Positions 2,007 through 31,265 of a stretch of 64,000 nucleotides of DNA are shown one piece after another. The notes under the pieces are model-generated. The model did not search any database, was not told the origin of the DNA, and worked only from the letters and a program-made list of their open reading frames with translations. A program made the translations under genes and the position numbers. Position 1 is the stretch's first letter, and each line of letters opens with the position of its first letter. This DNA is from a virus. The DNA is taken from positions 51,057 to 115,056 of the IMG/VR virus record IMGVR_UViG_3300021093_003900; one strand, given 5' to 3'.

Positions 2007-2010
2007 AATA

Positions 2011-2583: not shown

Positions 2584-2654
2584 AAATTCGCGGTTTAATT
2601 AATTTTTATATTTTTAAAAAAAAATAAAAATATTCGAAACAAAGTAAATATGTT

Positions 2655-2675
2655 ATTGAATCTTATCGATTCAAT
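2655..2675. other. 8-bp inverted repeat at the end of a glycosyltransferase gene
   Basis: ATTGAATC and GATTCAAT flank a TTATC loop, and the stop codon of the minus-strand gene lies inside the stem. No T-run follows on the minus strand, so it is not a clear intrinsic terminator. It could be an RNA-processing or attenuating stem in the 87-nt gap, which otherwise holds only AT-rich leader. Confidence 0.35.
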
Positions 2676-4325: not shown

Positions 4326-4328
4326 ACA

Positions 4329-5162: not shown

Positions 5163-5165
5163 TTT

Positions 5166-7661: not shown

Positions 7662-7665
7662 ATTA

Positions 7666-9813: not shown

Positions 9814-9814
9814 A

Positions 9815-11458
9815 TTATATCTGTTGATTTACTACTCGATAGTATTTGTCCTCAATTAATTGACCAACAACATCACTATTAAATTTATTTAACTCTTCAC
9901 TAGATGGTGGTGTGGTCAAAGTTTTTTCTATAATATTTCCAGATGAATCAACTTTATAAATCCACGCTGGTTTTCCGCAAAACCAACTTTCGATTGTCGT
10001 GCGACCAAGTAATATACCTGCAGTTTCACTAACTCTCTTAATGTAATCTTCAGTTCTCCATGTTGAGTTAAAGTATTTGACATGGGAATTTTGTAGTAAA
10101 GTTTCTAGATAATTTGATTTATTATCACCGACAAGCCACAATTCTTTTCCATTTTCTTTTGTGTAAGAAACTAAATCCTTGATTGTGTTTTCTCTTAAGT
10201 AATCAATACTACCAACAAATAAGACCGCATTCTCGACTTGAGTATTTTTTTGAGAAAATCGTTCATTATCAACAGGGTTATAAATTACAGAAGTTCTTTC
10301 TCTAGGTATTTCATAAACGTCAATAATATGTTCTTGAATTTCTGGACGAATACAAATATATTCACGAATTGTTTCATTAATTACTGGTTTTTCCAAACGT
10401 ATTACTTCTGAATGAATAGTTGAAATTTTTGGAATATTCGGATAAAGTTGACAAATATAATTTGTTGTAGGTTCGTGCTGAACATGTATAATATCAAAAT
10501 TCACTTCAGATACTTTATACATTGTATTAGGTATAGATAAGACCATTCCTTCTTGTGTTCTTAAACTCCATTTACCATCACCCAATTTGAACCCAGGTGG
10601 TTCTTTTAATGAGTACACCTTGATTCCTAGTTTTTTTGCCATGTCTTCTAAAGGTCGCCCAATATCAGAAAGCACCGAGACATCATGACCTAATTTTACA
10701 AGTGTCTTTGCTAATTCGTAAACATAAACTTCAGAACCTGTAAATGTTTTAAAAAAGAGACAAGACAACAAAATTTTTAGTTTTTCTTCTTTTTTCTTCG
10801 GTAGAATTTTCGGAAGTTCATTTGAATATCTTTCAATAAATTTAACTCTATTTTCTTCCCACTTTTCGTTTGTCATACCGATAGACTTATGTGTGACACG
10901 TATATCAAACATAACTCCAATTTGTACTCCTTCCAAAAAGTTTTGAAATGAAAAGTTAACATCGTAAAAATGAAAACCTTTGACAGTTTCATCAAATCTA
11001 GTTTTAATTCTGGATTTACTTAAACAAATAAATAATCCATCAACCATAACAACGTCTTTTAGTTTATCGCCTAAACTAGAACTATATTTTGATTCCCATT
11101 TTTTACCATCACTTTCATGATTTACAATACCAAACATTTTACTCCTATCTTCCCACCACATTCCACTTTTTGGTACATACGTTGTTCCAGCCAAACCAAT
11201 TATTCCGTGTGGATTTTTTTCAAAGTGTCTTGTCAGTTTTTTTGCCCAATTTTTAGTATCAAAGTAAATGTCATCATGACATAAAACAACTATATCATTT
11301 GAGGCTTCATTCAAAATTTCATTATAAACTTCTGTTAATGAACGACCGTTTGAATTTACTTTTTCGATAATTTCGACTTTTGGTAAACCACTTGATTTAC
11401 GAAGTAACTCTTTGAATTCTTCTGAAGAATTTCTTGTACTATATCCTATCGTAATCAT
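9815..11458 (-). CDS. Bifunctional glycosyltransferase: GT2-like (StrF-type) plus GT4
   Basis: The 547 residues form two domains. Residues 1 to about 225 are GT2-like: GYSTRNSSEEFKELL, SNDIVVLCHDDIYFDTKNWA (HDD metal site) and VDGLFICLSKSRI, as in StrF-type and rhamnosyltransferase-like domains. Residues 230-547 are GT-B/GT4: ILLSCLFFKTFTGSEVYVYE, LVKLGHDVSVLSD, FDIIHVQHEP, VIYNPVDNERF, and ILLGRTTIESWFCGKPAWIY holding the donor-binding Glu. The fusion would add two sugars in sequence, or couple initiation and extension. It begins 2 nt after the dUTPase gene. Confidence 0.75.
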   Translation of the reverse strand: MITIGYSTRNSSEEFKELLRKSSGLPKVEIIEKVNSNGRSLTEVYNEILNEASNDIVVLCHDDIYFDTKNWAKKLTRHFEKNPHGIIGLAGTTYVPKSGMWWEDRSKMFGIVNHESDGKKWESKYSSSLGDKLKDVVMVDGLFICLSKSRIKTRFDETVKGFHFYDVNFSFQNFLEGVQIGVMFDIRVTHKSIGMTNEKWEENRVKFIERYSNELPKILPKKKEEKLKILLSCLFFKTFTGSEVYVYELAKTLVKLGHDVSVLSDIGRPLEDMAKKLGIKVYSLKEPPGFKLGDGKWSLRTQEGMVLSIPNTMYKVSEVNFDIIHVQHEPTTNYICQLYPNIPKISTIHSEVIRLEKPVINETIREYICIRPEIQEHIIDVYEIPRERTSVIYNPVDNERFSQKNTQVENAVLFVGSIDYLRENTIKDLVSYTKENGKELWLVGDNKSNYLETLLQNSHVKYFNSTWRTEDYIKRVSETAGILLGRTTIESWFCGKPAWIYKVDSSGNIIEKTLTTPPSSEELNKFNSDVVGQLIEDKYYRVVNQQI

Positions 11459-11460
11459 AA

Positions 11461-12144
11461 TTAAATTCCTGTTGAACCAAACCCATTTTCACCTCGTTCC
11501 TTATCTTGTAAATTTTCTTGAAGTTGTAAATTAACTACAGATCCTACATAGACAGGATATAGTCCACATTGAGCGATTTTTTGTTGTTTTTTTATAACAA
11601 TTGGGTCTGGTGTTGAGTTGTAAACAATCACTTTTATTTCACCATTATAACCCGAGTCAATTGTTCCCGGACTGTTTAAAACGATCAATCCTTGATTGAT
11701 AGCAAGACCACTTTTAGTTCTGACTTGTAATTCATTATGTGAAGGAATATCAAACTTCAACCCTGTCGGAATTAAAGCTCTCTGAAACCCATCTAATTTG
11801 TACTCAATTACCGAATGCAAATCGAAACAGGAGTCTGTTCCATAATTATATTTGGGATCTACAGCATCAGGATGAATCTTGACGTAATTTAGTTTCATTC
11901 TTTGATCCATATTTGATTGATCAGATAATTCAGTCATAAAGTTTGAATTTTCTTCTGAAGAAAGAATTGCTATAAGGTTTTCTAGATCGAACCCGAGTTT
12001 TTGTGATAAATTTGACAACTCGTTTTCATCATCTTCTTTTGTAAATTCTTGAGATAGATTTTTTAATTCTTCTTGAAGTTCAGACAATGTTTGATTTATC
12101 TCATAATCAGGATCGTCAAGTTTGTTTGTATTACTATTGTCCAT
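11461..12144 (-). CDS. dut: dUTPase with acidic N-terminal extension
   Basis: Residues 83-227 are a trimeric-type dUTPase with all five motifs: GTDSCFDLHS (102-111), RTKSGLA (142-148), NSPGTIDSGYNGEI (157-170, catalytic Asp), QQKIAQC (187-193) and the C-terminal arm RGENGFGSTG (217-226). It hydrolyses dUTP to dUMP and PPi, keeping uracil out of DNA and feeding dTMP synthesis. The first ~82 residues are an acidic, Glu/Ser/Asn-rich, probably helical segment not found in ordinary dUTPases. An internal Met at 83 could start a standard-length enzyme. The TAATG overlap with the exonuclease gene supports the long start. Confidence 0.93.
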   Translation of the reverse strand: MDNSNTNKLDDPDYEINQTLSELQEELKNLSQEFTKEDDENELSNLSQKLGFDLENLIAILSSEENSNFMTELSDQSNMDQRMKLNYVKIHPDAVDPKYNYGTDSCFDLHSVIEYKLDGFQRALIPTGLKFDIPSHNELQVRTKSGLAINQGLIVLNSPGTIDSGYNGEIKVIVYNSTPDPIVIKKQQKIAQCGLYPVYVGSVVNLQLQENLQDKERGENGFGSTGI

Positions 12145-12845
12145 TATTTTAATTCTTTTAGTTTTTTTATTAAGTCAACTAATACTAAAACGTCCCTCTC
12201 ACAATACTCAACAATCAAATTAAGTTGATTGTGTTCCCAGTATGCTTCGTGAACTCTATTACCCGTAATTTCACCTTCTTTAGATGATGGTACACCCATA
12301 GCTGAGCACATTAACTCCAAGGACGATAAACCAAAAGGATTACCAAATTTCCAGACATCCATAGTATCTATTGCTCTAATTTCCCAAGGTTTTGTTTCAT
12401 AACTTGGTAGTAATGTTGAAGGTTTAATTCCGTTTATTACCATCCTTTTAAGTAAGTGAGGAATATCAAAATTTTTGACATTGTGACCACACAACCAAAA
12501 ATCCGATTTTTGAACTTTATTGAATAAATGATTAATTTCAAATAGAGTTTGTTTTTCATCATGTCCTGAGATGGTTTGTTTGTGAACTTTTCCATCAGGT
12601 GTTACAAAAGCAAAACTAGCACAGACTATTTTTGAAAACTCGGGAACAAGTGCTGCTCGGTTTATAAACACTTGTTCTTTTGGTAATTCTTTATCTTCAG
12701 GAAATCTTTTCAAAAACCAGTCAAAATAGTTGTGAAATTGCTTAAACAACATTTCATTGTTCTTTTCAAGCTCTTCATAGTTTTTGAATAAACCTACAGT
12801 TTCAATGTCAAAAAAAAGGATTTTATTTATTGGTTGTGTAATCAT
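12144..12845 (-). CDS. DnaQ-like 3'-5' exonuclease
   Basis: This 233-residue DEDD nuclease shows Exo I ILFFDIETVG (residues 9-18), Exo II WLCGHNVKNFDIPHLLKR around 117-134, and Exo III VEYCERDVLVLVDL near the C-terminus (Tyr-xxx-Asp, DEDDy subtype). It resembles the stand-alone PolB-type exonucleases of large phages, which probably process DNA ends or aid proofreading. It overlaps the upstream GT gene by 4 nt (ATGA) and the dUTPase gene by one, so DNA-metabolism genes are embedded in the sugar operon. Confidence 0.85.
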   Translation of the reverse strand: MITQPINKILFFDIETVGLFKNYEELEKNNEMLFKQFHNYFDWFLKRFPEDKELPKEQVFINRAALVPEFSKIVCASFAFVTPDGKVHKQTISGHDEKQTLFEINHLFNKVQKSDFWLCGHNVKNFDIPHLLKRMVINGIKPSTLLPSYETKPWEIRAIDTMDVWKFGNPFGLSSLELMCSAMGVPSSKEGEITGNRVHEAYWEHNQLNLIVEYCERDVLVLVDLIKKLKELK

Positions 12846-14097
12846 AATATGGATCTGTAAAATTCTGCTCTATCTTTTGTAACTTTTTCTAAACTATATT
12901 TTTCGTGGACAGTTTCATATAATCGTTCACCCAAGTCTTTGGCGAAGTTTGGATTTTGAATAAGTTTTTTAACATACTTAAACCAATCACCGTGATTTCT
13001 GTTTTCATCTACTAATAATGCGTTTCCGTTGGTAAATATACCATTATCTAAGGCATGAGTCAAATCGATAGTATAAGGTCCGAGATTAGATGCAATCAAA
13101 GCTTTCTTGTAAAAACCAGCCTCAATTACTTTCAATTGAGATTTCATTCTATTGAAAATGTGATTCTTGATAGGTGCCAAAGATACATCAAATTTTGTAT
13201 AATTTTTTGCGTATTGTTGAATCGGTCTTGTCCAAATTCTCTTATAGAATTCGTGAGAAAATTGACTATCATCCTCCTCTTTAAATCTCATTAATAAATT
13301 ATGATATTCAGGTGATATTAATTTATAATTGTCTGTGAATACTTGTTCATATTTGTACCACACAGTTTCATGTGGTTTAATATCTCGTTTTTTCTGTTCT
13401 CCAGTTTGTTGATTAATTTCAGTCACAGTACCTCGTATATCAAACCCACAAAGATAAACTTCAGTTGTGCCTTTGTACTCGTGCATACGAGAAAAAATTG
13501 ATTCAAGTATAGTAATGTCGTGTAAGTGAGATGAACCACCTAACCATCCAAATCTTAACTTATCTGAAGGTTCTGTAACCGCATTAAATTGAGCCTCAGT
13601 TTTACTAATTGCATTAGGAAATACAACAGCGTTTTTATTATACTTTGTTATTTCCTGAGCAAAAATACTCGTTGTTGTCATCACATAATCACTAACTTTT
13701 AGATTTTCTATTATCTTTTCGTGAATTTTATTTGACACAACTAAGTCGTGAATAGGATGATCTTTTGTCGGTAACCAGTAGTCATCCAAGTCCATAACTG
13801 TCTTTACACCTAATTGACCAACCATTTTAATCAAATTGGCTGAGGTATCATAGTTTTGACCAATAGTTCTGTGGAAATGAACTATATCATATTTTCGCCA
13901 AAAATTGATATCGTTTATTTGGGGTTCATATTCAATATCAATATGAAAGTCATTAGGATACATATTTTGTAAAAAAATATGTGGATCGATTGATCTGAAT
14001 TTACCTTTAGTTAACCAACCCCCGTACGGTCAGATGGGACTACAAGAATCCTGATCTTTTCGCGACCATTTGGGGGTGGAATTGAATTTTGTTGCAT
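12842..14097 (-). CDS. GT4-type glycosyltransferase, reading frame interrupted near its N-terminus
   Basis: The continuous downstream frame (13963-12842, 373 residues) is a GT-B enzyme: FWRKYDIVHFHRTIG, FGWLGGSSHLHDITILE and KVIEAGFYKKALIAS. It lacks the first Rossmann strand. That strand lies upstream in another frame: ATG at 14097 encodes MQQNSIPPPNGREKIRIL, then VVPSDRTGVG and a TAA stop. Eight nucleotides later the downstream frame resumes as GKFRSIDPHIFLQNMYPND without a break in family-like sequence. Joining the two parts gives one enzyme of about 413 residues. The gene is either read by translational bypassing, inactivated by a small insertion, or affected by a sequence error. It heads the minus-strand operon. 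Confidence 0.75.
14003..14016 (-). other. Candidate translational bypass site (GGT / TAACTAAA / GGT)
   Basis: On the coding strand the take-off codon GGT (14016-14014) is followed at once by TAA. The gap TAACTAAA (14013-14006) is 8 nt, and a matching GGT (14005-14003) opens the correct downstream frame. This is the arrangement of T4 gene 60, where matched GGA codons flank a gap that begins with a stop. No long gap hairpin fits in 8 nt, unlike gene 60. A -1 slip on ACG GGG GTT would also restore the frame but would add four residues (about WLTK) not expected at this point. Confidence 0.5.
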
Positions 14098-14105
14098 AGT
14101 TAGAA

Positions 14106-14160
14106 ATTATATTCTAAGAGTTTATTGTACTCGTAAAACGAATAACTCTAGAATTATAAT
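14106..14160. other. Long imperfect hairpin in the operon leader
   Basis: The arms ATTATATTCTAAGAGTTTAT and CGAATAACTCTAGAATTATA pair almost fully around a short loop (CGT AAA ACG), with a few bulges. It lies 9 nt upstream of the ATG at 14097 and downstream of a TATTTATA element, so it would form in the 5' leader of the glycosyltransferase operon. No T-run follows. A control or mRNA-stability element is more likely than a terminator. Confidence 0.55.
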
Positions 14161-14189
14161 CTAAAATACAATGATTTTCAAGGTAGAAA

Positions 14190-14197
14190 TATAAATA
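14190..14197 (-). promoter_or_regulatory. TATTTATA promoter-like element
   Basis: TATTTATA on the minus strand, immediately after the stop of the 14198-14758 gene and 92 nt upstream of the operon start at 14097. The same octamer precedes many gene starts in this window. It lacks an obvious -33 TTG. It is the best candidate for a promoter driving the minus-strand sugar operon. Confidence 0.45.
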
Positions 14198-14758
14198 TTA
14201 CTTAATTTTTTTGATTTTTGTCACAACACCTTCAAATACGTGACTTCCAACTCTGAAGGTTAGTGGTTGTTTTGTTGAAGAACTTTCTTCGTACAATAAT
14301 CCTTTTTCTGATAACACTTCTTCTATTGTTTCTTTCAACATAGATTTTAAAGTATTGTAATCAAAATTAGATTGAACCTTTTTGGGTTCTGCTTTTACAT
14401 TTCCAGCTGGATCTGTTTTCATTAATCTAGTTGCCGCTTCGACTAATTCATTTGATAAAACAGATTGACTTTGTGATTGAGGTTGTTCTATCGGATGTTC
14501 CAACATCAATCTTTTTATTTCATCTGGTAGTTTAGAATTTTGAATTCTCTGTGTCATTGGAACATTCGAGTTTTGTTGTGGAGCCTGTCTTTGTTCTTGT
14601 AAAAATTCTTGTGGAATGTTATAGTTTGCATTTACAGGTTCAAACGATTGAACACTAGGCGATGAAATACTCATAGGTGAATTACCTCTTGGCATTTCAG
14701 TTTGTTTATCCATAATTTTTTTAGCTACTGCTAATTTTTGTAATAAATCTTGATTCAT
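14198..14758 (-). CDS. Unknown protein with disordered Gln/Pro-rich middle
   Basis: The 186-residue protein starts with a short helix (LLQKLAVAKKIMDK). Residues 20-110 are low-complexity Gln/Pro/Ser/Asn-rich and probably disordered. A predicted helix, LKSMLKETIEEVLSEKGLL, follows, then a small beta segment ending FRVGSHVFEGVVTKIKKIK. The layout resembles an assembly or scaffold factor more than an enzyme, but I do not recognise the family. It is the last gene of a five-gene minus-strand cluster. Confidence 0.6.
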   Translation of the reverse strand: MNQDLLQKLAVAKKIMDKQTEMPRGNSPMSISSPSVQSFEPVNANYNIPQEFLQEQRQAPQQNSNVPMTQRIQNSKLPDEIKRLMLEHPIEQPQSQSQSVLSNELVEAATRLMKTDPAGNVKAEPKKVQSNFDYNTLKSMLKETIEEVLSEKGLLYEESSSTKQPLTFRVGSHVFEGVVTKIKKIK

Positions 14759-14760
14759 AG

Positions 14761-15156
14761 TTATACAGTTTGAGTATTGAACTTTGCATTAATTATAACA
14801 CTATTCATGCTTTTGTCACCATTAAAATTATAATTTGGTCGAGGTTCATTAAAATTTGAACGCAAAGGTTTATACATAGTGATTTTATCAACTCTAAATA
14901 GTCTCCATCCCGGAAGGGGTTGAGTTCCCAAATAACCAGTATGCGACGCTCCAGTTCTGTCCCAAGCTCTTAATACCAAATTATTTGACTTAGAGCGACC
15001 TAAACAGACAGGTTCAATTTCTCTTAATCCACGACCACCTGGTTCATCTCCAGTGTAATAAATTGTACATACTTGTTTCTTCTCTATCGAATTTTTTATG
15101 TCATTGATAGACGTAGCCTCTATTATAAGACCAGATAGAGATTTAAGTAGTTTCAT
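14761..15156 (-). CDS. Stand-alone WYL-like domain protein
   Basis: In this 131-residue protein residues 28-96 resemble a WYL domain: VCTIYYTGDEPGGRG, then REIEPVCLGRS, NNLVLRAWDRTGASHTGY, and LPGWRLFRVDKITMYKPL. This is the SH3-like fold with the conserved R...EP, L.A.d and W..F..d.I positions. WYL domains usually sit behind a helix-turn-helix and sense nucleic acid or ligands. Here there is no DNA-binding domain, only a short N-terminal helix and an Asn/Pro-rich tail. A role in transcription or in binding DNA ends is possible. It begins 1 nt after the upstream gene. Confidence 0.55.
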   Translation of the reverse strand: MKLLKSLSGLIIEATSINDIKNSIEKKQVCTIYYTGDEPGGRGLREIEPVCLGRSKSNNLVLRAWDRTGASHTGYLGTQPLPGWRLFRVDKITMYKPLRSNFNEPRPNYNFNGDKSMNSVIINAKFNTQTV

Positions 15157-16768: not shown

Positions 16769-18937
16769 ATGGCTTATCAAAACATTAATCAGTATGTCAA
16801 ATCAAAATTGTATTTACAACCTGTTTTACAAATTTCTGACATTTCATTGGCCGCTGATGAGAGAGAATACAATGAAGAAGTTGTGTTCTCACCACTTATT
16901 ATTGGTGCAAATGATGGTGATGTTTTACCTGTAAAAATTGATTTAAATTTTTCTGGATCCTCTCAAAAAATCAATTTGACTTTTGGTGATTACAAAAGAG
17001 AAAACGTAATCATTTCTGAAAATTATTATAATCCATACGATTATATTTTAGATTGTTTTTCTGGAAAAAGTATTTGTGATATTGGTTTGACTGGTACGGA
17101 TAATGGTTTGGTTACGGGAATGACGGGACAGAGTATTTCTTACACCGAGGGACTATTGCCAAATAATACAAAATTTGATCGATTGAAATTTGACCGTAGA
17201 TTGAAATTATTTCAAGTTACAGGATATACGAGCCATCCAAATCATAGATTTTCAGGAATAACGGCTGAGACCTCGTATGAAATGGTTTCTTATACCGCAA
17301 ACACCATAGGAACTTACAACGAATTATACGGTGGTTTTTACCAAGGGTTTTATGAACTATTTGGATATGAATACAAAATACTACCTGAAAGATATACCAA
17401 AGGTTGGACTGTAGAGATGACATTAAAGCCTAGGATCTACAATCAATATACAACCCCGTCTGGTAAAACAACATTAAATTCATATTACCCAAATAATTCT
17501 GGAATATTTTTTTATATGGGAACTCGTGCTGAAAACAAATACTGGCATTTTGCACAAGGTAAAAACCCAACAGATCCAAATTACGATAGAGTAACTAGAA
17601 GGCTTTTAGATTTAAGTACTTGTGATTGCAAAACACTTAATCCTGGTTATTCTACAAATTCAACAACTCATTTTGATTTAAGTGTTTCAGGTGCAACAAT
17701 ACAAGTAGGTCAAGATTTATTATGGGCATCAGGTGACATTTGTGTTGTTTATCATAACGAAATTGCATTCCTGACTGGGAATGTTATTGGGTATACAGCA
17801 TCGACTAATTCATTACAATTTGTTACAACTTATCGTGTGGGTAAAGGAGATTTCAAATACTGGGTTGTGGATAAATTAAATTTCTTGGAATACAATAATT
17901 CCGATTGTTATTTTGTTTATCCCCCAACAGGCGTTACTGATTATCACTACACGGAAAGTCCTTGTTGTCCAGATGAACCCCAAGTACCTGTCCCTGAGCA
18001 AGACGCGGCTTACAATGGAATGTCTAATGCTTTAGCTATACGATTTAGTGGTGATCCAACTAACCCAAAAATTTGTATACGTACATTAACAATGACAGGT
18101 GATTGCATCACAAGTGGAAGTTGTGAAACTACTGGATATGAATCGCAAACAGGTTACTCAATAAATAACTATTGTACAACTAGGAGAATATACGATGATT
18201 GTAGTGGGACAACTTATTCTTTAGGTGAAAATTGGGTTCTAGTCGATGTTAGCTTTGAAAGGAACACCGCACTTGATGAGTGTGATTTGGTTTATCTTGG
18301 TGGATTAGGTGTAATATCGAATATGGTATTCACAGCATCTACGGATAGTAATTCAGTATCACTTATCTCTCCACCAATAACTCATTACCAACTAAACCCA
18401 GAAACAGAAGAACTTGTACAACTGAACAATGATTGGCTTCTTGAAAAGGGGTTTCGGAAAGGTAAATTAAGAATTTTTGTTAATGGTAAGTTATTCGAAA
18501 CTTTCGATAATGTTGAAGAAATAATACCTAGGGGTTTGTATGGACACAAAGAAACTCAAGTGGGTGTACCATTCAATATTTCTTGGGGTGGTGGTACCCA
18601 AGGATTGCATGAAAACCTAGTATTCAGTGCTATACCAACAACCGATTTAAACTATTACATACAAGACCCAGAATTGTTTCCACCAAATATTTTGAGTGGA
18701 ACAAGTCTTAGTGCTTTAACAACAAATATTCTTATTGAACAAAACTTTGCTGGCACTTTTGATGGGGGTATATCATCATTTTCTATGTATGCAAAACCTC
18801 TGACTATTCCTGAGGTTCAACATAATGCAAGAATACTTAAACCAAAATATAATTTTTTGAATCCTTTTTGCCTGAATTGTATTGATTCAACGCCAACACC
18901 TACCCCTTCAATAACCCCAACACCAACACCAACTTGA
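16769..18937 (+). CDS. Large beta-rich virion surface protein with LamG-like domain and Thr-Pro tail
   Basis: The 722-residue protein is rich in Tyr, Thr, Gly and Asn, as phage fibres and decoration proteins are. Segments such as GWTVEMTLKPR and GIFFYMGTRAENKYWHF look like concanavalin/LamG strands. The region near 680-705 (GTFDGGISSFSMYAKPLT, then IPEVQHNARIL) matches the end of a LamG-like domain. Many paired Cys (SPCCPDEP, NPFCLNC) suggest disulphides or metal binding. The last ~17 residues are a mucin-like tail (TPTPTPSITPTPTPT). It is directly followed by a GT60-type GlcNAc-transferase, which could glycosylate the tail. It probably serves in host recognition or adhesion on the virion. 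Confidence 0.7.
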   Translation: MAYQNINQYVKSKLYLQPVLQISDISLAADEREYNEEVVFSPLIIGANDGDVLPVKIDLNFSGSSQKINLTFGDYKRENVIISENYYNPYDYILDCFSGKSICDIGLTGTDNGLVTGMTGQSISYTEGLLPNNTKFDRLKFDRRLKLFQVTGYTSHPNHRFSGITAETSYEMVSYTANTIGTYNELYGGFYQGFYELFGYEYKILPERYTKGWTVEMTLKPRIYNQYTTPSGKTTLNSYYPNNSGIFFYMGTRAENKYWHFAQGKNPTDPNYDRVTRRLLDLSTCDCKTLNPGYSTNSTTHFDLSVSGATIQVGQDLLWASGDICVVYHNEIAFLTGNVIGYTASTNSLQFVTTYRVGKGDFKYWVVDKLNFLEYNNSDCYFVYPPTGVTDYHYTESPCCPDEPQVPVPEQDAAYNGMSNALAIRFSGDPTNPKICIRTLTMTGDCITSGSCETTGYESQTGYSINNYCTTRRIYDDCSGTTYSLGENWVLVDVSFERNTALDECDLVYLGGLGVISNMVFTASTDSNSVSLISPPITHYQLNPETEELVQLNNDWLLEKGFRKGKLRIFVNGKLFETFDNVEEIIPRGLYGHKETQVGVPFNISWGGGTQGLHENLVFSAIPTTDLNYYIQDPELFPPNILSGTSLSALTTNILIEQNFAGTFDGGISSFSMYAKPLTIPEVQHNARILKPKYNFLNPFCLNCIDSTPTPTPSITPTPTPT

Positions 18938-19001
18938 GCGTCAAATGATTCTTGACAAGTCGGTAATTAGTAATAGAACTTTTTGAAAAAAAACAAAGTG
19001 T

Positions 19002-19009
19002 TATTTATT
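19002..19009 (+). promoter_or_regulatory. TATTTATT promoter-like element
   Basis: TATTTATT lies in the 113-nt gap between the surface-protein gene and the GT60 gene, 41 nt before the ATG at 19051. TTTG sits about 16 nt upstream of it, so a host-type promoter is also possible. The gap otherwise holds AT-rich leader and a weak GTCAA/TTGAC stem without a T-run. Confidence 0.35.
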
Positions 19010-19050
19010 TTAAAATTTAGAAAGTTATTTTTCAAATAAAATTAATTTAT

Positions 19051-20304
19051 ATGAAAATATTCATTCAGATAGCATCTTACAGAGATCCTGAGTTGAAAAA
19101 AACTATAGCCAATTGCCTTGAAAACGCCGATAAACCTGAAAATTTAGTTTTTGGTATTGCACGTCAATTTCACCCTGATGATAAATTCGACGACTTAACT
19201 GAGTATATGACAGATGAGAGATTTCGAATTTTGAACATTCCATACAATGAATCAAAAGGTGCGTGTTGGGCTAGAAACCAAATTCAACAACTATACAATA
19301 AAGAACAATATACAATGCAATTGGATTCCCACATGAGATTTGCACCTCACTGGGACACTGAAATGATTGGTATGATAAAACAATTACAGAAAAAAGGATA
19401 TAAAAAACCTTTGTTAACTGGTTATGTTTCTTCTTTTGACCCAGATAACGACCCTAGTGCTAGAGTACAAGAACCTTGGAGGATGGTATTCGATCGTTTT
19501 ATTCCTGAAGGTGCTGTATTTTTTCTTCCTGAAACAATACCAAATTGGCAAACATTGACTGAACCAGTTCCAGCAAGATTCTACTCAGCTCATTACGCAT
19601 TTACTTTAGGTAAATTTACTAAGGAAGTTCAGCACAACCCTGAATATTATTTTCACGGTGAAGAAATTTCAATAGCGGCGAGAGCTTATACTTGGGGTTA
19701 TGATTTATTTCACCCACATAAAGTTTTAATCTGGCACGAATACACAAGAAAAGGTAGAACTAAACAGTGGGATGATGATAAACAATGGGTTGATAAAAAC
19801 AATGTTTCCCATTTAACAAATCGAAAGTTATTTGGTATGGATGGATTACCACAAGAAGGACATGACGGTAAATATGGATTCGGAAAGGCCAGAAGTCTCC
19901 AAGATTATGAAAAATATTCAGGATTACTTTTTGAAAAACGTGCTGTTCAACAATACACGCTCGATAAAAACTATCCACCAAACCCTTATAACTACTCAAC
20001 AGAAGAAGAGTGGAAAGCCGATTTTGCAATGATATTCAAACATTGTATTGATATCGGATATTCACAGGTACCTGAAAAAGATTATGATTTTTGGGTTGTG
20101 GCTTTTCACGATGAAACTGATGAGACTATCTTCAGAAAAGATGCGGACAAGGGAGAGATCGCAAGAATGATGAACGACCCAGATGGGTATTGTAAAGTAT
20201 GGAGAGAGTTCCAGACAGCACATAAACCAAAATATTGGGTAGTTTGGCCACACTCAGAGTCTAAGGGATGGTGTGAAAGAATTACTGGAAATTTACCATT
20301 TTAA
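19051..20304 (+). CDS. GT60-type polypeptide N-acetylglucosaminyltransferase
   Basis: The 417-residue protein opens with IFIQIASYRDPELKKTIANC and NLVFGIARQ. It continues with ACWARNQIQQLYNKEQYTMQ and LDSHMRFAPHWDTEMI, the core of the GlcNAc-transferase family (GT60) first known from Skp1 GlcNAc-transferase and trypanosome mucin GlcNAc-transferase. These enzymes attach alpha-GlcNAc to hydroxyproline or threonine of a polypeptide. YFHGEEISIAARAYTWGYD matches the catalytic and acceptor region. The C-terminal ~110 residues (EKDYDFWVVAFHDETDET) look like an extra domain. The gene lies next to a virion protein with a Thr-Pro tail and heads the second sugar island, so it is the best candidate for glycan initiation on virion proteins. 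Confidence 0.8.
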   Translation: MKIFIQIASYRDPELKKTIANCLENADKPENLVFGIARQFHPDDKFDDLTEYMTDERFRILNIPYNESKGACWARNQIQQLYNKEQYTMQLDSHMRFAPHWDTEMIGMIKQLQKKGYKKPLLTGYVSSFDPDNDPSARVQEPWRMVFDRFIPEGAVFFLPETIPNWQTLTEPVPARFYSAHYAFTLGKFTKEVQHNPEYYFHGEEISIAARAYTWGYDLFHPHKVLIWHEYTRKGRTKQWDDDKQWVDKNNVSHLTNRKLFGMDGLPQEGHDGKYGFGKARSLQDYEKYSGLLFEKRAVQQYTLDKNYPPNPYNYSTEEEWKADFAMIFKHCIDIGYSQVPEKDYDFWVVAFHDETDETIFRKDADKGEIARMMNDPDGYCKVWREFQTAHKPKYWVVWPHSESKGWCERITGNLPF

Positions 20305-20308
20305 ATTT

Positions 20309-20938
20309 ATGATTGATTTAAAAAAAACATTTGAAGATTTTAATATCCAATGTTCGGGTATAATTCATGTCGGGGGGCACCAAGCACAAGAATATCAAAC
20401 ATATAAGGAAATTGGTATACAACATCAAATTTGGATCGAAGCTAACCCGTTTTATTATTCACAAATATTGGAAGTAATTAAAAATGATGAGTTTTCTATC
20501 GCCTTTAATTATTTAATTCTTGATGAAGAAAAAGAAGTTTCATTCAATTTGGCTAATAATGGTCAATCATCATCTGTTTTACCACTCAAAAATCATATTA
20601 AATACTACCCAAATATCAAGTTTGATGGTCAAATGTTGACAACTAGTAAAAGATTAGACTCATTGATCAAAGAATACAAAATTGAAGTAGAGAACTATAA
20701 TGGATTAGTTGTTGACGTACAAGGTGTTGAATTAAAAGTACTTATGTCCTTGGGATCATTGTTACAAAACTTCAAATTTATACAATCAGAAGTTAATTTA
20801 GAAGAACTTTATGAGGGTTGTTGTCTTATAGATGATTTAGACAAATATTTAGAACAATTTGGGTTTGAAAGGAAGATTACTAAGTTATGGGATAATGGTT
20901 CTGTAGGTTGGGGTGATGCTATGTATATTAAAATATGA
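20309..20938 (+). CDS. FkbM-family methyltransferase (second copy)
   Basis: A protein of about 209 residues. I start it at 20309 (MIDLKKTFEDFNIQ), 4 nt after the GT60 stop, rather than at an upstream in-frame Met inside that gene. FkbM features seen: GIIHVGGHQAQEYQTYKEIG, IWIEANPFYYSQIL, NNGQSSSVLP and LVVDVQGVELKVLMSLG. It likely O-methylates a sugar hydroxyl. It parallels the FkbM gene at 7666-8277. Its C-terminus overlaps the next gene by 4 nt. Confidence 0.8.
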   Translation: MIDLKKTFEDFNIQCSGIIHVGGHQAQEYQTYKEIGIQHQIWIEANPFYYSQILEVIKNDEFSIAFNYLILDEEKEVSFNLANNGQSSSVLPLKNHIKYYPNIKFDGQMLTTSKRLDSLIKEYKIEVENYNGLVVDVQGVELKVLMSLGSLLQNFKFIQSEVNLEELYEGCCLIDDLDKYLEQFGFERKITKLWDNGSVGWGDAMYIKI

Positions 20939-21684
20939 TTAATTTTTGTATTTTATACTGGGATATGGGTTGTGAAATAAGGAAACAGAATTCTATTATT
21001 TCATGGTTTGAATTGAAAAAAATGACTTACTATTTGAAGTCAAGAGGTTTGAATATCAATGCTTATTTATTCGAATTCGGTAACAATTTTATATTTGAAG
21101 ATTCAATAAAAATAAAAGATAAATTGGAATATTATGAAAAATCCAAAAAAAATAATCTAGCTATTAATCACAATTTGAATGACTATAGTGATTTTATAGC
21201 AATAATGGATTCTGATTTATTTTTTTGTGAAAATCAATATGAAATGATTTATAATCATTTGACTGAATTAATTGAAAGTAAAGAACGGAAATTTTTTACA
21301 TATAATTTACTTGATATTGATTATGAAGAAAGAAATCAAATTATTGATTTTGAAAAAAATCAATTAATGTATGAAAAAATTGATGAGTTTAATTTGAAAT
21401 ATTCTTGGAGACATTCTTTTGGTGCTGGTGTATTGGGTGGTATTTTTATCGTACCAACACCAGAAATTAGGAAAATGGACGGGTTCGATGAAAATTTTCT
21501 TACATGGGGTGCTGAAGATGATGAAGCATTTGTAAGATTAAAATATTTTGCTACGTGGTATCCTAAAATGAATGAAGGACCATATCATCTATGGCATCCA
21601 AAAAATGAAACAGATCCCAAATATTATATTCCTGTATATTCAGATGAATATTTTAAAATTAATAAAGTAAAAAATCCAAGATGA
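20935..21684 (+). CDS. Galactosyltransferase-like GT-A enzyme (GT7 C-terminal type)
   Basis: In this 249-residue protein FIAIMDSDLFFCENQYEM supplies a DSD metal-binding site. GAGVLGGIFIVPTPEIRKMD then GFDENFLTWGAEDDEAFVRL is the typical C-terminal segment of GT7/GT27-like transferases, with the WGxEDDE acceptor and base region. It is a soluble cytosolic enzyme that would extend a glycan with Gal, GalNAc or a similar sugar. It overlaps both neighbours by 4 nt. The coding DNA is noticeably more AT-rich than the structural genes. Confidence 0.7.
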   Translation: MINFCILYWDMGCEIRKQNSIISWFELKKMTYYLKSRGLNINAYLFEFGNNFIFEDSIKIKDKLEYYEKSKKNNLAINHNLNDYSDFIAIMDSDLFFCENQYEMIYNHLTELIESKERKFFTYNLLDIDYEERNQIIDFEKNQLMYEKIDEFNLKYSWRHSFGAGVLGGIFIVPTPEIRKMDGFDENFLTWGAEDDEAFVRLKYFATWYPKMNEGPYHLWHPKNETDPKYYIPVYSDEYFKINKVKNPR

Positions 21685-22430
21685 AAAATAATTTAATTAC
21701 TTTTGTTACATTTTGTGTCGACATTGGTCGTGGTGATTTACCTTTGGAAAATTCTATTCATAGAAACTTTGAGCTTTACAAGGCTGGTATGTATGAAAAC
21801 ATAAATACAAAAGTTCCAATGGTTCTTTTTTCATCCGTTGAAGATTTAAAAATCCCTGACTATAGAAATTTAACAAACTTTCGTCATATACCTTTAACAA
21901 AATCATTAATTGAGAATGATTTCCCAAATTTTGAATTATATCGTGAATTTTACCCTGTAACAAAAAAAGACGAAATTGAAAATTCATTGTTTTATTATAC
22001 ACCTTTAGTTGTATTAAAAATGAAAAAAATGATAGAAATATCAAAATTAAATCCTTTTGGAAGTGAAATATTTTTATGGATAGATTGTTTTTTTACTAGA
22101 GGATTGCCAAATTTAGATTTCATGAATGAAGAAGTTGATTACCTAATGATGTGTGGAAATGTGAAAAAAAAGTTGAGTAATAACAAATTTGTTTTGTTAA
22201 ATTGGGGTCCAAGACCTTTTGGTTTTTTTTGGGGTGGTACAACACAAGCTTTGCAAAATATGTACGAACACTACTTTGAAATTTTCTTCGAGTATCTACC
22301 AACCAAATTAATGACAGAGGAATTAATCTTTAAAGAAATCAATGAAAGATATCCAAATTTAATCAATATGATACAAGTTGAAAATGCCATTGATTATAAA
22401 TTAGCTTGTAGTAATTTTATGACAAAATGA
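21681..22430 (+). CDS. HtrL/YibB-like glycosyltransferase
   Basis: This 249-residue protein begins with LITFVTFCVDIGRGDLPLE. EIFLWIDCFFTRGLPN follows, where the WID segment is the probable metal site, then GPRPFGFFWGGTTQALQNMY and TEELIFKEINERYPN. The order WID / GGxxG / E-E-x-x-F is shared with the HtrL/YibB (WlaTC-like) family, two more members of which follow in this island. Family members sit in LPS and glycan loci and are presumed glycosyltransferases; the reaction here is unknown. Confidence 0.6.
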   Translation: MKNNLITFVTFCVDIGRGDLPLENSIHRNFELYKAGMYENINTKVPMVLFSSVEDLKIPDYRNLTNFRHIPLTKSLIENDFPNFELYREFYPVTKKDEIENSLFYYTPLVVLKMKKMIEISKLNPFGSEIFLWIDCFFTRGLPNLDFMNEEVDYLMMCGNVKKKLSNNKFVLLNWGPRPFGFFWGGTTQALQNMYEHYFEIFFEYLPTKLMTEELIFKEINERYPNLINMIQVENAIDYKLACSNFMTK

Positions 22431-23200
22431 TAGTATATTCTGATTTTAATAAAGGTCGACTTGGAAATCAACTTTTTTTTGTGGCATCAACTATTGGTAT
22501 AGCATATAAAAATCATACAAATTTTGGTTTTTCAACTCAAATGGCGTCTGGTACCGATAACTACCAATCTTTGTTTAAAAAAAATTTACCGATAGTTCAT
22601 TCAGTGCCTGAAAATAAATTTCATCAAAATGGATTTAATTATCAAGACATACAAATCAATGACGTTGAATTGTTTGGATATTATCAATCTGAGAAATTTT
22701 TCAAGCATTGTGAAGATATAATTTTAGAACAATTTGATTTTAATGAAAAATTTATTGAAATATGTTCTACACTATATCCGAATGTAACTAACTCATTATC
22801 TTTACATGTTAGACGTGGAGACTATTTGTCTCAACCAAACCATCACCCAACATTACCTCTGAAATACTATGAAATAATACTCTCTGAAATTTCGAAAAAT
22901 TATGAAAATATTCTTATTTTCAGTGATGATTCAGATTGGGTAAAAAGTAACTTTATTGGAGATAATTATATTTTTCCAACATTTGATACTGAAAATGTTT
23001 TAAAAAGTTTTGTATTAATGTCAATGTGCTCTGATAACATTATATCAAACTCTACATACAGTTGGTGGGCGGCTTGGTTAAATAGGAATAAAAACAAAAA
23101 TATTTATTCACCAAACCATAGTCAATGGTTTGGTTCGTCGTATTCCAATTTGGATACTTCTGATTTAATACCTAATAATTGGATACAAATCAAATTCTGA
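22427..23200 (+). CDS. GT11 alpha-1,2-fucosyltransferase (second copy)
   Basis: A 257-residue GT11 protein: FNKGRLGNQLFFVASTIGIA at the N-terminus, SLHVRRGDYLSQPNHHPTLP, ILIFSDDSDWVKSNF, and MSMCSDNIISNSTYSWWAAW near the C-terminus. It transfers fucose, or a related L-sugar, from a GDP donor. It is clearly paralogous to the gene at 8267-9091 but quite diverged, so the two may have different acceptors or separate origins. It overlaps its upstream neighbour by 4 nt. Confidence 0.9.
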   Translation: MIVYSDFNKGRLGNQLFFVASTIGIAYKNHTNFGFSTQMASGTDNYQSLFKKNLPIVHSVPENKFHQNGFNYQDIQINDVELFGYYQSEKFFKHCEDIILEQFDFNEKFIEICSTLYPNVTNSLSLHVRRGDYLSQPNHHPTLPLKYYEIILSEISKNYENILIFSDDSDWVKSNFIGDNYIFPTFDTENVLKSFVLMSMCSDNIISNSTYSWWAAWLNRNKNKNIYSPNHSQWFGSSYSNLDTSDLIPNNWIQIKF

Positions 23201-23835
23201 TGATACATAAAATAGTTTCTTTTTATCACAAAAACTTGAACCCTGAAATTAAGATTTTACAAAAAAAAGTTTTTGATTATTTAGATATTGATTTAGTTCA
23301 ATTTGAATTTACTGACAGTCATCCAGTCGCCATTGAATTTTTTTTAGAAAATAACAAATGGGATTTGATTACATTATTCGATGTGGATTGTATTCCTACT
23401 GAAAAAAAAATTATAGATAATATATTGGAAATTATTGATGACAATACAATTTATGGTAATGCTCAATTTTCTAATTGTTTACCTTATGTAGGCCCTAGTT
23501 TTATGTCATTTAATAAAAAATTATATGAAAATTCAATTCACAAAAAATTTCATGATGGTCTTTATCTTTGTGGAGATAAATTTCATCACTTAGATGTGGG
23601 TGAAATTTTTGTAAAAGAAAACTTAAAGTTTGGTAACAAACAAGTTCTCAGTTATCCAGTTTCAGTTGAAGAAAAAAAATGGAAATTTATAGGGAATGAA
23701 TTATACCCAAGTTTTGAGTTTGGAGTTGGGACATTATTTGATAATAAAACATTTCATTGTTTTCAAATTAGATTTGAGACTAATCAACACATTTTTAAAC
23801 TTTTTGTTAATAATTTATTAAATGAAAAAAATTAA
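23200..23835 (+). CDS. Putative GT-A glycosyltransferase
   Basis: A protein of about 211 residues. I choose the ATG at 23200 (MIHKIVSFYHKNLNPEIKIL), which shares one base with the preceding TGA. LITLFDVDCIPTEKKIIDN is a clear DxD-type metal site near residues 60-66. YGNAQFSNCLPYVGPSFMSF and YLCGDKFHHLDVGEIFV supply candidate acceptor and base residues. It is a small soluble enzyme with no family name I can give. The sequence is Lys/Phe/Asn-rich like the whole island. Confidence 0.55.
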   Translation: MIHKIVSFYHKNLNPEIKILQKKVFDYLDIDLVQFEFTDSHPVAIEFFLENNKWDLITLFDVDCIPTEKKIIDNILEIIDDNTIYGNAQFSNCLPYVGPSFMSFNKKLYENSIHKKFHDGLYLCGDKFHHLDVGEIFVKENLKFGNKQVLSYPVSVEEKKWKFIGNELYPSFEFGVGTLFDNKTFHCFQIRFETNQHIFKLFVNNLLNEKN

Positions 23836-24721
23836 ATTTATCACTTGTATTTATACAGATCTATACGGTTCTGAACTAGGTGGGAGACCTGGTAGATTTC
23901 ATCATTACAGGTGGAGTCTACTTTCGCTTTTGAAAATGACAGAAGCTGATTTTATTTGTTATACATCAGCCAGTGAATTTTTATCATTGAAACAATTTTT
24001 TTTTGAAGAAAATTCTATTTCTGAGGATCAATTGAAAATTGAAATTTTTGATATTTGGAATTGTAAATATAAAAATTTACTAAAACAAACAAAAAATTTG
24101 GAATTTACTAAAGGGGGTGACCGTTGTATAGAAATACAATACTCTAAATTTGCATGGTGGTACTATGAAGATAAAACGTATGATTATTATTATTGGATAG
24201 ACGCTGGACTATCACATTGTGGTTTAATCCCAGTAAAATACTTAGATCCAAAGTCTTATATGGCAAGTTTTTATGAATGTAATCTTTTCAATAATGATTT
24301 TTTAAATAATCTTATTGAATATACTCAAGACAAATTTTTTTTAATTGGTAAAGACAATGTCCGTAACTTTTGGTCTCAAACCGTTGATCCTAAATGGTAT
24401 AAAAATTATGATAATACTATTCACATAATTGGAGGATTATTTGGCGGCAAACGAGAAAAATGGGATGAAATTGTAAAATTGTTCGAAAATTACATTGAAC
24501 AAATTTTGATTGATGACTTTAAGTCACAAGACAAAGAATTACCACATGAAGAACAAATAATGTCCCTTATGTGGGTAAATCATCAAGATTTATTTATACG
24601 GAAACATTTTGACATATGGTGGTGTCCTGATAGTGGTCCTAGAGATGCGTTACCAGAAATATACACACAAAATAAAAGTTTTTATAGAATCTTAGAGGAA
24701 TTTAATAGAATTTATGAATAA
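23822..24721 (+). CDS. HtrL/YibB-like glycosyltransferase
   Basis: In this 299-residue protein KFITCIYTDLYGSELGGRPG begins the Rossmann-like core. EIQYSKFAWWYYEDK and YYYWIDAGLSHCGLIP carry the WIDAG metal motif of HtrL/WlaTC-type proteins. IIGGLFGGKREKWDEIVKLF and LPHEEQIMSLMWVNHQDLF complete the GGxxGG / E-E-x-I pattern. The presumed role is sugar transfer in the cytosol. It overlaps both neighbouring genes by 8-14 nt. Confidence 0.65.
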   Translation: MKKIKFITCIYTDLYGSELGGRPGRFHHYRWSLLSLLKMTEADFICYTSASEFLSLKQFFFEENSISEDQLKIEIFDIWNCKYKNLLKQTKNLEFTKGGDRCIEIQYSKFAWWYYEDKTYDYYYWIDAGLSHCGLIPVKYLDPKSYMASFYECNLFNNDFLNNLIEYTQDKFFLIGKDNVRNFWSQTVDPKWYKNYDNTIHIIGGLFGGKREKWDEIVKLFENYIEQILIDDFKSQDKELPHEEQIMSLMWVNHQDLFIRKHFDIWWCPDSGPRDALPEIYTQNKSFYRILEEFNRIYE

Positions 24722-26384
24722 TACAACTTTAGTCACTGGTTTATGGAATATAAACCGCCACGCATTATCTGAAGGGTGGTCAAGAAATTTCGATCATTAC
24801 TTATCGAAATTAGAACAATTATTAAAAATTGACGAAAATCTTATTATTTTTGGAGATAAGGATTTAGAAAAATGGGTATTTGAACGAAGACAACAACATA
24901 ATACTCAATTTATTGTAAGAGAATTGAATTGGTTCAAAAATGAATTCCACAAAAAAATTCAAAGAATCAGATTGGATTCATCATGGTACTCACAATCAAG
25001 TTGGTTACCACAATCAACACAAGCAAAATTAGAAATGTATAATCCATTAGTTATGTCAAAAGTTTTTCTTTTACACGACGCAAAAATAATGGATCGATTT
25101 GATTCAACACATTTATTTTGGATAGATGCTGGTATAACGAACACTGTTCATCCGGGTTATTTTACACATGACAAGGTTTTAAATAAATTGAGTAAATTAA
25201 AAAACATAACTTTTATCGCGTTCCCATACGAAGCTGAAAATGAAATTCACGGTTTCGATTATTCGGAAATGTGTAGAATGGTAAATAAAAAAATTGATAA
25301 GGTATGTCGTGGTGGTTTTTTTGGTGGCCCAAAAGAAAAAATAGGAGATTTTAACCCTCTTTATTATAGTTTGATGAGTAATACATTATCTCGTGGTTAT
25401 ATGGGTACTGAAGAATCACTTTTTACACTTTTGACGTATCAACACCCAGAAATTTTTGAATATTTTGAAATTGAGTCAAATGGTCTAATATCAAAATTTT
25501 TTGAAGATCTGAAGAATGATCAACACAAAATAAAAAGTGAGAGTTTAACACCTATCTCTGGAAACAATTTAGACATCAATAATTCCGCACTTTATGTAAT
25601 CACATTTAATAGTCCAAAACAATTTGAAACTTTAATAGAGTCAATGATTCAGTATGATTGTAATTTCATAGACAAACCAAAAAAGTACTTGTTAAATAAT
25701 TCTAGTGATGATTCAACATTTGACAAGTATGATGAGTTGTGTGCACAATATGAGTTTATTCATATCAAAAAAGATAATCTTGGAATTTGTGGTGGAAGAC
25801 AGTTCATAGCTGAACATGCCGAAGCCAACGACTTTGATTACTATTTCTTTTTTGAGGATGATATGTTTTTTTATCCAAAAAAAGGAGAAGTTTGTCGAAA
25901 CGGTTTTAATAGATATGTGAGTAATTTCTATAATAATGTTCTCCAAATTATTCAAAAACACAATTTTGATTTTCTTAAATTTAATTATTCAGAATTTTTT
26001 GGAGATAATGGAACTCAATGGTCTTGGTATAATGTACCACAATTCGTAAGAGAACAATTTTGGCCGGGTAAAAATAGATTACCTGAGTTAGGGTTAGATC
26101 CTAATGCTCCTAGAACTAGATACGAACATATTTGGTCACACAATGGTATTCCCTATGTGAGTGGTGAAGTTTACTACTCGAATTGGCCTCAAGTAGTTTC
26201 TAGAGAAGGAAACAAAAAAATGTTTTTGAATACAACTTGGGCACATCCTTTCGAACAGACGTGGATGTCTCATATTTTTCAGGAAACCAAAAAAAACAAT
26301 ATTAAACCTGCTTTGTTAATGATGACTCCAACCGAACACAACAGATTCGAATTTTATGACAAAAATTTGAGAAAAGAATCTTAA
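24714..26384 (+). CDS. Bifunctional protein: HtrL/YibB-like plus GT2-like domain
   Basis: The 556 residues split into two domains. Residues 1 to about 270 are HtrL/YibB-like, with HLFWIDAGITNTVHPGYF, CRGGFFGGPKEKIGDF and YMGTEESLFTLLTYQHPE. Residues ~285-556 are GT-A like: NSALYVITFNSPKQFETLIE, LGICGGRQFIAEHAEAN and YYFFFEDDMFFYPKKG (an EDDM metal site), followed by NTTWAHPFEQTWMSHIFQE. The fusion would make two linkages with one polypeptide and parallels the GT2-GT4 fusion in the other island. It closes the second sugar island. Confidence 0.65.
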   Translation: MNNTTLVTGLWNINRHALSEGWSRNFDHYLSKLEQLLKIDENLIIFGDKDLEKWVFERRQQHNTQFIVRELNWFKNEFHKKIQRIRLDSSWYSQSSWLPQSTQAKLEMYNPLVMSKVFLLHDAKIMDRFDSTHLFWIDAGITNTVHPGYFTHDKVLNKLSKLKNITFIAFPYEAENEIHGFDYSEMCRMVNKKIDKVCRGGFFGGPKEKIGDFNPLYYSLMSNTLSRGYMGTEESLFTLLTYQHPEIFEYFEIESNGLISKFFEDLKNDQHKIKSESLTPISGNNLDINNSALYVITFNSPKQFETLIESMIQYDCNFIDKPKKYLLNNSSDDSTFDKYDELCAQYEFIHIKKDNLGICGGRQFIAEHAEANDFDYYFFFEDDMFFYPKKGEVCRNGFNRYVSNFYNNVLQIIQKHNFDFLKFNYSEFFGDNGTQWSWYNVPQFVREQFWPGKNRLPELGLDPNAPRTRYEHIWSHNGIPYVSGEVYYSNWPQVVSREGNKKMFLNTTWAHPFEQTWMSHIFQETKKNNIKPALLMMTPTEHNRFEFYDKNLRKES

Positions 26385-31014: not shown

Positions 31015-31265
31015 AGTTTCACTAGGTGTATTAGTTAAGGTTCTGTCGGTGTTGGTGTGTTTGTTACTGTTTCACTAGGTGTATTAGTTGGTGTTTCTGT
31101 CGGTGTTGGTGTGTTTGTTACTGTTTCACTAGGTGTATTAGTTGGTGTTTCTGTCGGTGTTGGTGTGTTTGTTACCGTTTCACTAGGTGTATTAGTTGGT
31201 GTTTCTGTCGGTGTTGGTGTGTTTGTTACTGTTTCACTAGGTGTATTAGTTGGTGTTTCTGTATT
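31015..31265 (-). repeat. 54-bp tandem repeats encoding the Thr-Pro tail
   Basis: About four copies of a 54-bp unit, nearly identical (one C/T difference noticed), encode [19 protein letters not shown] partial copy continues past the TAA at 31037-31035 in another frame, showing that the array once read further. The high identity implies recent expansion by slippage or recombination. Confidence 0.9.

Follow-up and report, generated by a model that had tools for sequence, protein, structure and literature searches.

A GT60-family glycosyltransferase gene linked to Thr-Pro stretches of fibre-like proteins in a phage with T4-like genes: a candidate system for mucin-type O-glycosylation of virion stalks

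Glycosylation of phage virions is, to our knowledge, established in few systems. Freeman et al. are said to have described, in 2023, mycobacteriophage virions whose capsid and tail-tube subunits carry glycans at their C-termini. Glycosylation of mycobacteriophage virion proteins is also mentioned in PMC12619734, and a GT60 enzyme of T. cruzi makes N-acetylglucosamine (GlcNAc)-alpha-Thr on mucin-like proteins (PMC9472816); these articles, like the others cited below by PubMed Central (PMC) number, are represented here by excerpts, to which our statements refer. In the present work we analyzed a viral gene for a GT60-family protein that lies directly downstream of a gene for a fibre-like protein with a Thr-Pro tail. 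The window, by which we mean the whole stretch of DNA analyzed, comprises 64,000 nucleotides and corresponds to bases 51057-115056 of the 115,056-base virus record IMGVR_UViG_3300021093_003900. It contains T4-like genes for a sheath protein, a UvsX-like protein, and a DNA polymerase, which were named by reading the open reading frames (ORFs) without a database search. With a probability of roughly 70%, we propose that phages encoding this GT60 protein glycosylate the mucin-like Thr-Pro stalks of their own fibre-like proteins. The features of the window that are central to this proposal are the following.

16769-18937, plus strand: 722-residue fibre-like protein of the MAYQNINQY family that ends in a Thr-Pro tail of 16 residues
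18887-18934, plus strand: sequence encoding this Thr-Pro tail, whose counterpart in the related locus L559 has 214 residues
19051-20304, plus strand: GT60-family glycosyltransferase, predicted to be the probable initiator of O-glycans on Thr (PF11397, PHROG, alignment, model)
31035-31562, minus strand: 175-residue protein consisting of an N-terminal module of about 60 residues followed by a Thr-Pro stretch that extends to the end

An earlier interpretation of the window, made from the letters alone and called the sequence-only reading below, had assigned a GT60 core to the protein encoded 113 nucleotides behind the fibre-like protein. This assignment was confirmed: the ORF at 19051-20304 encodes 417 residues, the gap spans positions 18938-19050, and the protein matched the PF11397 (GlcNAc) profile with an E value of 2.6e-65 and 221.6 bits compared to a cut-off of 21. 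It also matched PHROG 24687, annotated "glycosyltransferase," with an E value of 1.3e-171. In place of a DxD motif the protein has a DxH motif formed by D92, S93, and H94. In an alignment of 39 sequences (22 from phages and 17 from the 19 bacterial loci described below) D92 and H94 were invariant and S93 was at least 90% conserved. The DxH signature has been described for the families GT27 and GT60, both of which are said to O-glycosylate Ser/Thr of polypeptides (PMC7185993). The structure prediction that the sequence-only reading had suggested as a check gave a model with a predicted local distance difference test (pLDDT) score of 92.4. In a Foldseek search with this model the first 23 rows were all polypeptide N-acetylgalactosamine (GalNAc)-transferases, and after structural realignment the same was true for the first 29 rows, with Z scores from 22.1 to 19.2, followed by a row with a Z score of 17.7. 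The top Z score was obtained for GalNAc-T10 and GalNAc-T2, with a root-mean-square deviation of 3.5 over ~278 residues and ~12% identity in the aligned rows; the part of the model beyond residue ~330 was hardly covered by these comparisons. According to the model, the protein is predicted to have a GT-A fold allied to GT27. A comparison by sequence found no solved chain at E≤1, and no solved GT60 structure was recognized among the 50 rows shown for each fold comparison. Taken together, the product of 19051-20304 is a GT60-family protein by sequence, motif, and predicted fold.

The association of GT60 genes with Thr-Pro stretches, defined as at least 25 residues within an ORF, was analyzed in related viral loci, i.e., the best 80 of 406 GT60 loci in IMG/VR (GT60 identity 77-94%). 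Two sets of viral control loci were used, 120 picked by an arbitrary 14-mer and 119 picked by a UvsX motif; the total sequence of the three sets was similar (1.44 Mb for the GT60 loci, 1.05 and 0.96 Mb for the controls), with unequal lengths of the individual loci. A Thr-Pro stretch was present in 76 of the 80 GT60 loci but in only 1/120 arbitrary and 6/119 UvsX-motif loci. Removal of loci whose GT60 proteins were at least 95% alike by simple position-wise identity reduced the 80 loci to 38, of which 36 contained a Thr-Pro stretch, the misses being L053 and L080. Among the 23 loci with both flanks complete, a Thr-Pro ORF was located upstream on the same strand in 19, downstream on the same strand in 9, and on the opposite strand in none, and in 24/38 dereplicated loci such an ORF ended less than 400 nucleotides upstream of the GT60 gene. 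The 192 Thr-Pro segments of the 38 loci (14,692 residues) consisted of 38% Thr, 21% Pro, and 9% Ser. Stalks of up to 816 residues were observed. All four codons were used for Thr as well as for Pro, which suggests selection on the protein rather than a DNA repeat.

In a second comparison, longer contigs were scored for PF11397 matches and for exact (Thr-Pro)3 patterns. It included 17 UvsX relatives and 16 UvsX-motif contigs of at least 30 kb as well as 15 arbitrary ones with a minimum length of 40 kb, each set drawn from 80 listed loci. (Thr-Pro)3 sites were present in 9/12 contigs with GT60 versus 9/36 without it (Fisher p 0.004, kinship ignored). The three GT60 contigs lacking such sites were G042, G056, and G065. 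By a looser measure, and within the regions fetched, the ORF adjoining GT60 in G056 has a stretch of 130 residues, G042 has one of 22 residues, and G065 has none of at least 20. In 20 GT60-bearing records, several of them near-duplicates, (Thr-Pro)3 sites were found in 19, and the remaining one (G087) has a 273-residue stretch at L070 by the looser measure. The regions fetched around the divergent GT60-like genes of G025, G030, and G042 contained stretches of 36, 29, and 22 residues, that of G025 being collagen-like rather than Thr-Pro. These results show that the linkage of GT60 to Thr-Pro stretches is real. Separately, we noted that the divergent gene of G025 (L648:311-676) has an ORF with collagen-like GPT repeats ~7.6 kb upstream.

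Among 50,697 phage records, GT60 homologues (tblastn E≤1e-5) were found in three, all of them jumbo phages: the Xanthomonas phage XacN1, the Stenotrophomonas phage RAS14, and CM1, whose record is marked "unverified." These genomes have 29, 19, and 19 (Thr-Pro)3 sites, respectively. For comparison, 11 relatives (10 complete genomes and 1 partial genome) were picked from 40 listed of the 2,569 records with a match to the DNA polymerase of XacN1, and in none of these 11 was PF11397 or a (Thr-Pro)3 site detected. A control for specificity with GT2 (PF00535) was uninformative, as 0/14 jumbo phages scored over the cut-off. The GT60 homologue of XacN1 is ORF334 (49% identity). All 28 of the 29 XacN1 sites that were read lie in frame, within 12 ORFs. 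Of these, ORF325 directly follows the gene for a baseplate wedge protein (ORF324), ORF372 belongs to the sheath region, and ORF350 neighbours a gene for a "structural protein"; the Thr-Pro site nearest to GT60 is ~9 kb away. In the 2018 paper on XacN1, excerpts report at least two glycoproteins by proteomics, name ORF334 as one of two glycosyltransferases, and state that no tail fibres were recognized by microscopy or homology (PMC5852040).

GT60 relatives are also encoded in 19 bacterial loci, six of which (L529, L525, L537, L538, L542, and L543) contain a Thr/Pro-rich ORF; high-GC DNA favours Pro-rich tails. In Jiulongibacter sediminis (L529) and in a Saprospiraceae metagenome-assembled genome (MAG; L525) the Thr-Pro ORF directly adjoins GT60 and is divergently transcribed, in Rhodospirillales (L543) the Thr/Pro-rich ORF lies just upstream of GT60, and in Trinickia (L537, L538) and Cupriavidus (L542) the Thr/Pro-rich part is the tail of a VgrG-type protein, ending in (TP)n in L538, STPEP in L542, and PPPTE repeats in L537. 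In seven loci the GT60 relatives lie among genes of type VI secretion systems (T6SS). Pfam confirmed such genes in two of them, with TssF in L535 and VgrG domains in L538, and further identified a contractile injection tube protein in L543; the T6SS genes of L534, L537, L540, L541, and L542 were assigned by tblastn with the VgrG of L538 or by reading of ORF starts. L540 is a counter-example, as its VgrG homologue ends in EEPAASD repeats, with no Thr-Pro in the last 45 residues.

Some further features of these loci were observed. In L543 (positions 1-11218) the GT60 relative lies in a contractile injection system locus (CIS_tube) and adjoins a protein in which a Pro/Thr-rich linker is combined with an Rv2525c-like domain. 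In L529 (positions 7942-15145) two Jiulongibacter GT60 genes flank the Thr-Pro protein and are followed by genes for a carbamoyltransferase and an FkbM-YibB protein; XacN1 ORF333, which adjoins the GT60 gene of that phage, is likewise annotated as a carbamoyl transferase. The GT60 gene of the window has its closest bacterial relatives (69-70% identity) in L525, L526, and L527, which are MAGs of Saprospiraceae and Bacteroidia and thereby hint at the host.

The 722-residue protein, which is presumably part of the virion, ends in ...STPTPTPSITPTPTPT. It had no match in Pfam (E≤1) or PHROG (E≤0.01). Its relatives have the first 700 residues in common (192/195 candidates, of which 79 loci were kept). 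In L559 the DNA is 96% identical to that of the window up to position ~18922, and the match resumes at ~18981 with 83% identity. Between the two match blocks of this region (16769-19050 of the window) L559 has ~870 bases compared to ~58 in the window, and the extra bases code for a C-terminal domain and for the greater part of a Thr-Pro stretch of 214 residues, indicating that the copy of the window is shortened. The shortening may go back either to a genuine deletion or to repeats that collapsed during assembly. The predicted model of the protein had a pLDDT of 61.7, with 254/704 residues below 50, and no PDB entry matched it at E≤0.001, so that no conclusion on the fold was drawn from the PDB rows. 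A Foldseek search of a viral structure library gave one close uncharacterized relative and, more distantly, phage proteins of the ConA/LamG type, collagen-repeat proteins, and tail-fibre proteins. The length of this protein and the presence of a Thr-Pro tail were as the sequence-only reading had claimed. The description of the tail as mucin-like suits the family, as exemplified by L559, and the protein at 31035-31562; for the copy in the window it is weak, because only 16 residues are left.

The second protein with a long Thr-Pro tail named in the sequence-only reading was recovered as described there. In this 175-residue protein the stretch begins at residue ~55-64 and runs to the end, measuring 120 residues by our stretch measure, and a long mucin-like stretch of Thr/Ser and Pro is found in the protein and in its relatives. 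The first 70 residues matched the part preceding the stretch in 17 other Thr-Pro ORFs (phmmer E 1.9e-33 to 4e-7; the query ends in a few Thr-Pro residues, the ORFs include near-duplicates, and a part of the matches is internal to long ORFs), which points to a module of ~60 residues common to Thr-Pro proteins. This N-terminal module (31383-31562, minus strand) is possibly a common anchor of the Thr-Pro proteins of these phages.

Downstream of the GT60 gene and in a second region on the minus strand, the window contains further genes that might serve glycan synthesis. Homologues of the plus-strand genes were searched by tblastn (E≤1e-8) in flanks of up to 10 kb of the 38 dereplicated related loci.

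20273-20938, plus strand: FkbM-type methyltransferase (PF05050, E 1.9e-8); homologue in 1/38 loci
20935-21684, plus strand: GT7C/GT2-like glycosyltransferase (PF02709, E 2.9e-9); homologue in 0/38
21681-22430, plus strand: HtrL/YibB-like protein (22.8 bits, below the Pfam cut-off of 24.1); homologue in 2/38
22427-23200, plus strand: GT11-type (fucosyltransferase family) enzyme (PF01531, E 9.9e-22); homologue in 0/38
23822-24721, plus strand: 299-residue protein, no family assigned; homologues in 16/38 phage loci and 2/2 jumbo-phage loci
24714-26384, plus strand: YibB-domain protein (HtrL_YibB, E 8e-18) with a weakly TAGT-like C-terminal part (TAGT E 0.042, below the cut-off; phrog_842 E 1.4e-5)
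870-11458, minus strand: second glycan cluster, with epimerase/dehydratases (870-2006, 5166-6167), GT10 (6852-7661), GT11 (8267-9091), and GT2 plus GT4 (9815-11458)

The GT7C, GT11, GT10, GT2, and GT4 enzymes named by the sequence-only reading are thus all present. The idea that the GT7-like and GT11 enzymes generally extend the glycan was not upheld, since homologues of the two genes at 20935-21684 and 22427-23200 were absent from all 38 loci in this test. Of the cluster genes tested, the one that accompanied GT60 most constantly was 24714-26384, which the sequence-only reading had not named; it has homologues in 37/38 phage loci, 2/2 jumbo-phage loci, and 7/19 bacterial loci. The conserved core is therefore likely to consist of GT60 and this YibB/TAGT-like protein. 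In the minus-strand cluster, which also holds ORFs that had no Pfam match or were not scanned, the sugar-nucleotide enzymes have a GDP-mannose dehydratase domain and lie beside GT10 and GT11. As neither of these two enzymes reached an NCBIfam equivalog cut-off, a supply of GDP-fucose is a guess. The minus-strand cluster may contribute to the glycan on the Thr-Pro stretches.

If our proposal is correct, the product of 19051-20304 would add the first alpha-linked N-acetylhexosamine (HexNAc), probably GlcNAc, to Thr residues of the Thr-Pro stretches. Its substrates would have a common plan, with a conserved N-terminal part, a mucin-like Thr-Pro stalk, and a variable C-terminal domain. The YibB/TAGT-like enzyme encoded at 24714-26384 would probably act next, and enzymes specific to the window might elaborate the chain. 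The stalks could thereby become stiff, protease-resistant, and hydrated, so that adhesin domains would be held off the particle or the particle would be masked. We infer the sugar on the Thr-Pro stretches, its identity, the order of the enzymes, and the virion location of the proteins; the step from linkage to chemistry is aided by the one published report of glycoproteins in a relative, XacN1.

The sequence-only reading had already proposed that the phage makes O-glycosylated, mucin-like appendages. Apart from the GT7/GT11 extenders, this proposal is in part and indirectly supported by the motif and predicted fold of GT60, by the Thr-Pro linkage across relatives, by the co-occurrence in jumbo phages, by some of the bacterial loci, and by the XacN1 glycoproteins. 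Several observations weigh against it. The tail of the 722-residue protein is shorter than the 25 residues used in our definition, so that in this record it does not count as mucin-like. The 80 loci include near-duplicates and are the best of 406, hence the counts are not independent, and XacN1, CM1, and RAS14 likewise represent one clade. By the same measure as above, 13/19 bacterial loci have no Thr-Pro ORF, and the excerpts of PMC5852040 do not match the XacN1 glycoproteins to particular ORFs. The nine contigs with (Thr-Pro)3 sites and no GT60 match include the 120-kb contig G048, and when contigs with a minimum of 40 kb were selected by a (Thr-Pro)4 pattern, only 9/31 contained GT60 (versus 1/15 arbitrary ones); as many contigs are fragments, the absence of GT60 is weak evidence. 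Homologues of the 722-residue protein with no GT60 gene in the fetched flank also have poly-Thr or Thr-Pro tracts. For at least one of them, L611, the GT60 gene is situated just past the fetched stretch (contig G049), so that such flanks are not clean negatives. Thr-Pro linkers without GT60 may nevertheless exist. Among the homologues of the 722-residue protein from such flanks, some have poly-Thr ends, as in L602 (positions 4992-7244) and similar loci.

These observations bear on three other explanations. GT60 might act on another protein of the phage or the host, its nearness to fibre genes reflecting a clustering of host-interaction genes. Inherited gene order accounts for part of the linkage in the 80 loci, some contigs have Thr-Pro sites but no GT60 match, and in XacN1 the nearest site is distant from GT60. 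We nevertheless consider this explanation unlikely, because the jumbo phages show the co-occurrence without adjacency (3/3 versus 0/11) and the linkage recurs in some bacterial loci that lack the phage gene order. It is quite improbable that the Thr-Pro stretches are bare stiff linkers, unglycosylated and comparable to the collagen-like repeats of phage fibres. The collagen-repeat proteins among the Foldseek neighbours of the 722-residue protein and the tracts in its homologues from GT60-less flanks would fit such a function, whereas the rarity of the stretches in arbitrary viral loci and the lack of (Thr-Pro)3 sites in all 11 sampled jumbo phages without GT60 argue against it.

Still less probable is a modification of phage DNA or of a host surface polysaccharide by the enzyme and its cluster. 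For this, one can cite the weak similarity of the partner protein to TAGT and to phrog_842 (beta-glucosyl-HMC-alpha-glucosyltransferase), which are families of DNA glycosylation. Phage glycosyltransferases acting on DNA or host serotype are indeed reported in excerpts of PMC12619734. On the other hand, both the GT60 family and the nearest folds represent transferases that act on polypeptides, the similarity to TAGT does not reach the cut-off, and the glycosylated molecules reported for XacN1 are proteins (PMC5852040). We therefore retain self-glycosylation of Thr-Pro stalks as the preferred reading. A broader generalization, for which we see somewhat less than an even chance, is a prokaryotic mucin-type O-glycosylation module of GT60 and the YibB/TAGT-like protein that is dedicated to Thr-Pro stalks, common to contractile machines (large tailed phages, type VI secretion tips, and extracellular injection systems) and to Bacteroidota surface proteins, and traded between phages and bacteria.

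If true, the self-glycosylation would place a mucin-type initiator near its presumed substrate, which would provide a rule by which glycosylated virions can be predicted from sequence, could account for the XacN1 glycoproteins, and would offer a bacterial-type enzyme with which Thr-Pro peptides can be O-glycosylated. For contractile machines in general, the presence of the pairing in loci of secretion and injection systems would imply decorated stalks. In the open-licence PMC literature, judged by titles and the beginnings of abstracts, we recognized no report of a phage GT60 or of Thr-Pro glycosylation in phages, and nothing combined "GT60" with "phage" or T6SS/VgrG with glycosylation.

The closest described enzymes are the alpha-GlcNAc-transferases of protists such as TcOGNT1 of T. 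cruzi, which likewise belong to PF11397, have the DxH motif, and have presumed peptide-hydroxyl acceptors in Thr-rich mucin-like proteins. The protist enzymes are located in the Golgi, whereas the phage enzyme, whose activity is predicted from sequence and model, is encoded beside its presumed substrate and, being phage-encoded, would be cytosolic. The GT27 polypeptide GalNAc-transferases of mucin-type O-glycosylation provide the closest solved folds, but by family the phage enzyme belongs to GT60 rather than GT27. Mycobacteriophages likewise have glycans on virion proteins; in the system proposed here, Thr-Pro stalks of fibre-like proteins would be modified, with GT60 as initiator. XacN1 resembles the window in having a GT60 homologue (ORF334), a YibB/TAGT homologue, Thr-Pro-rich ORFs, some of them beside tail genes, and at least two reported glycoproteins. 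It differs in its jumbo genome, in which these genes are not adjacent, and in the excerpts of PMC5852040 ORF334 is not tied to GT60 or to Thr-Pro.

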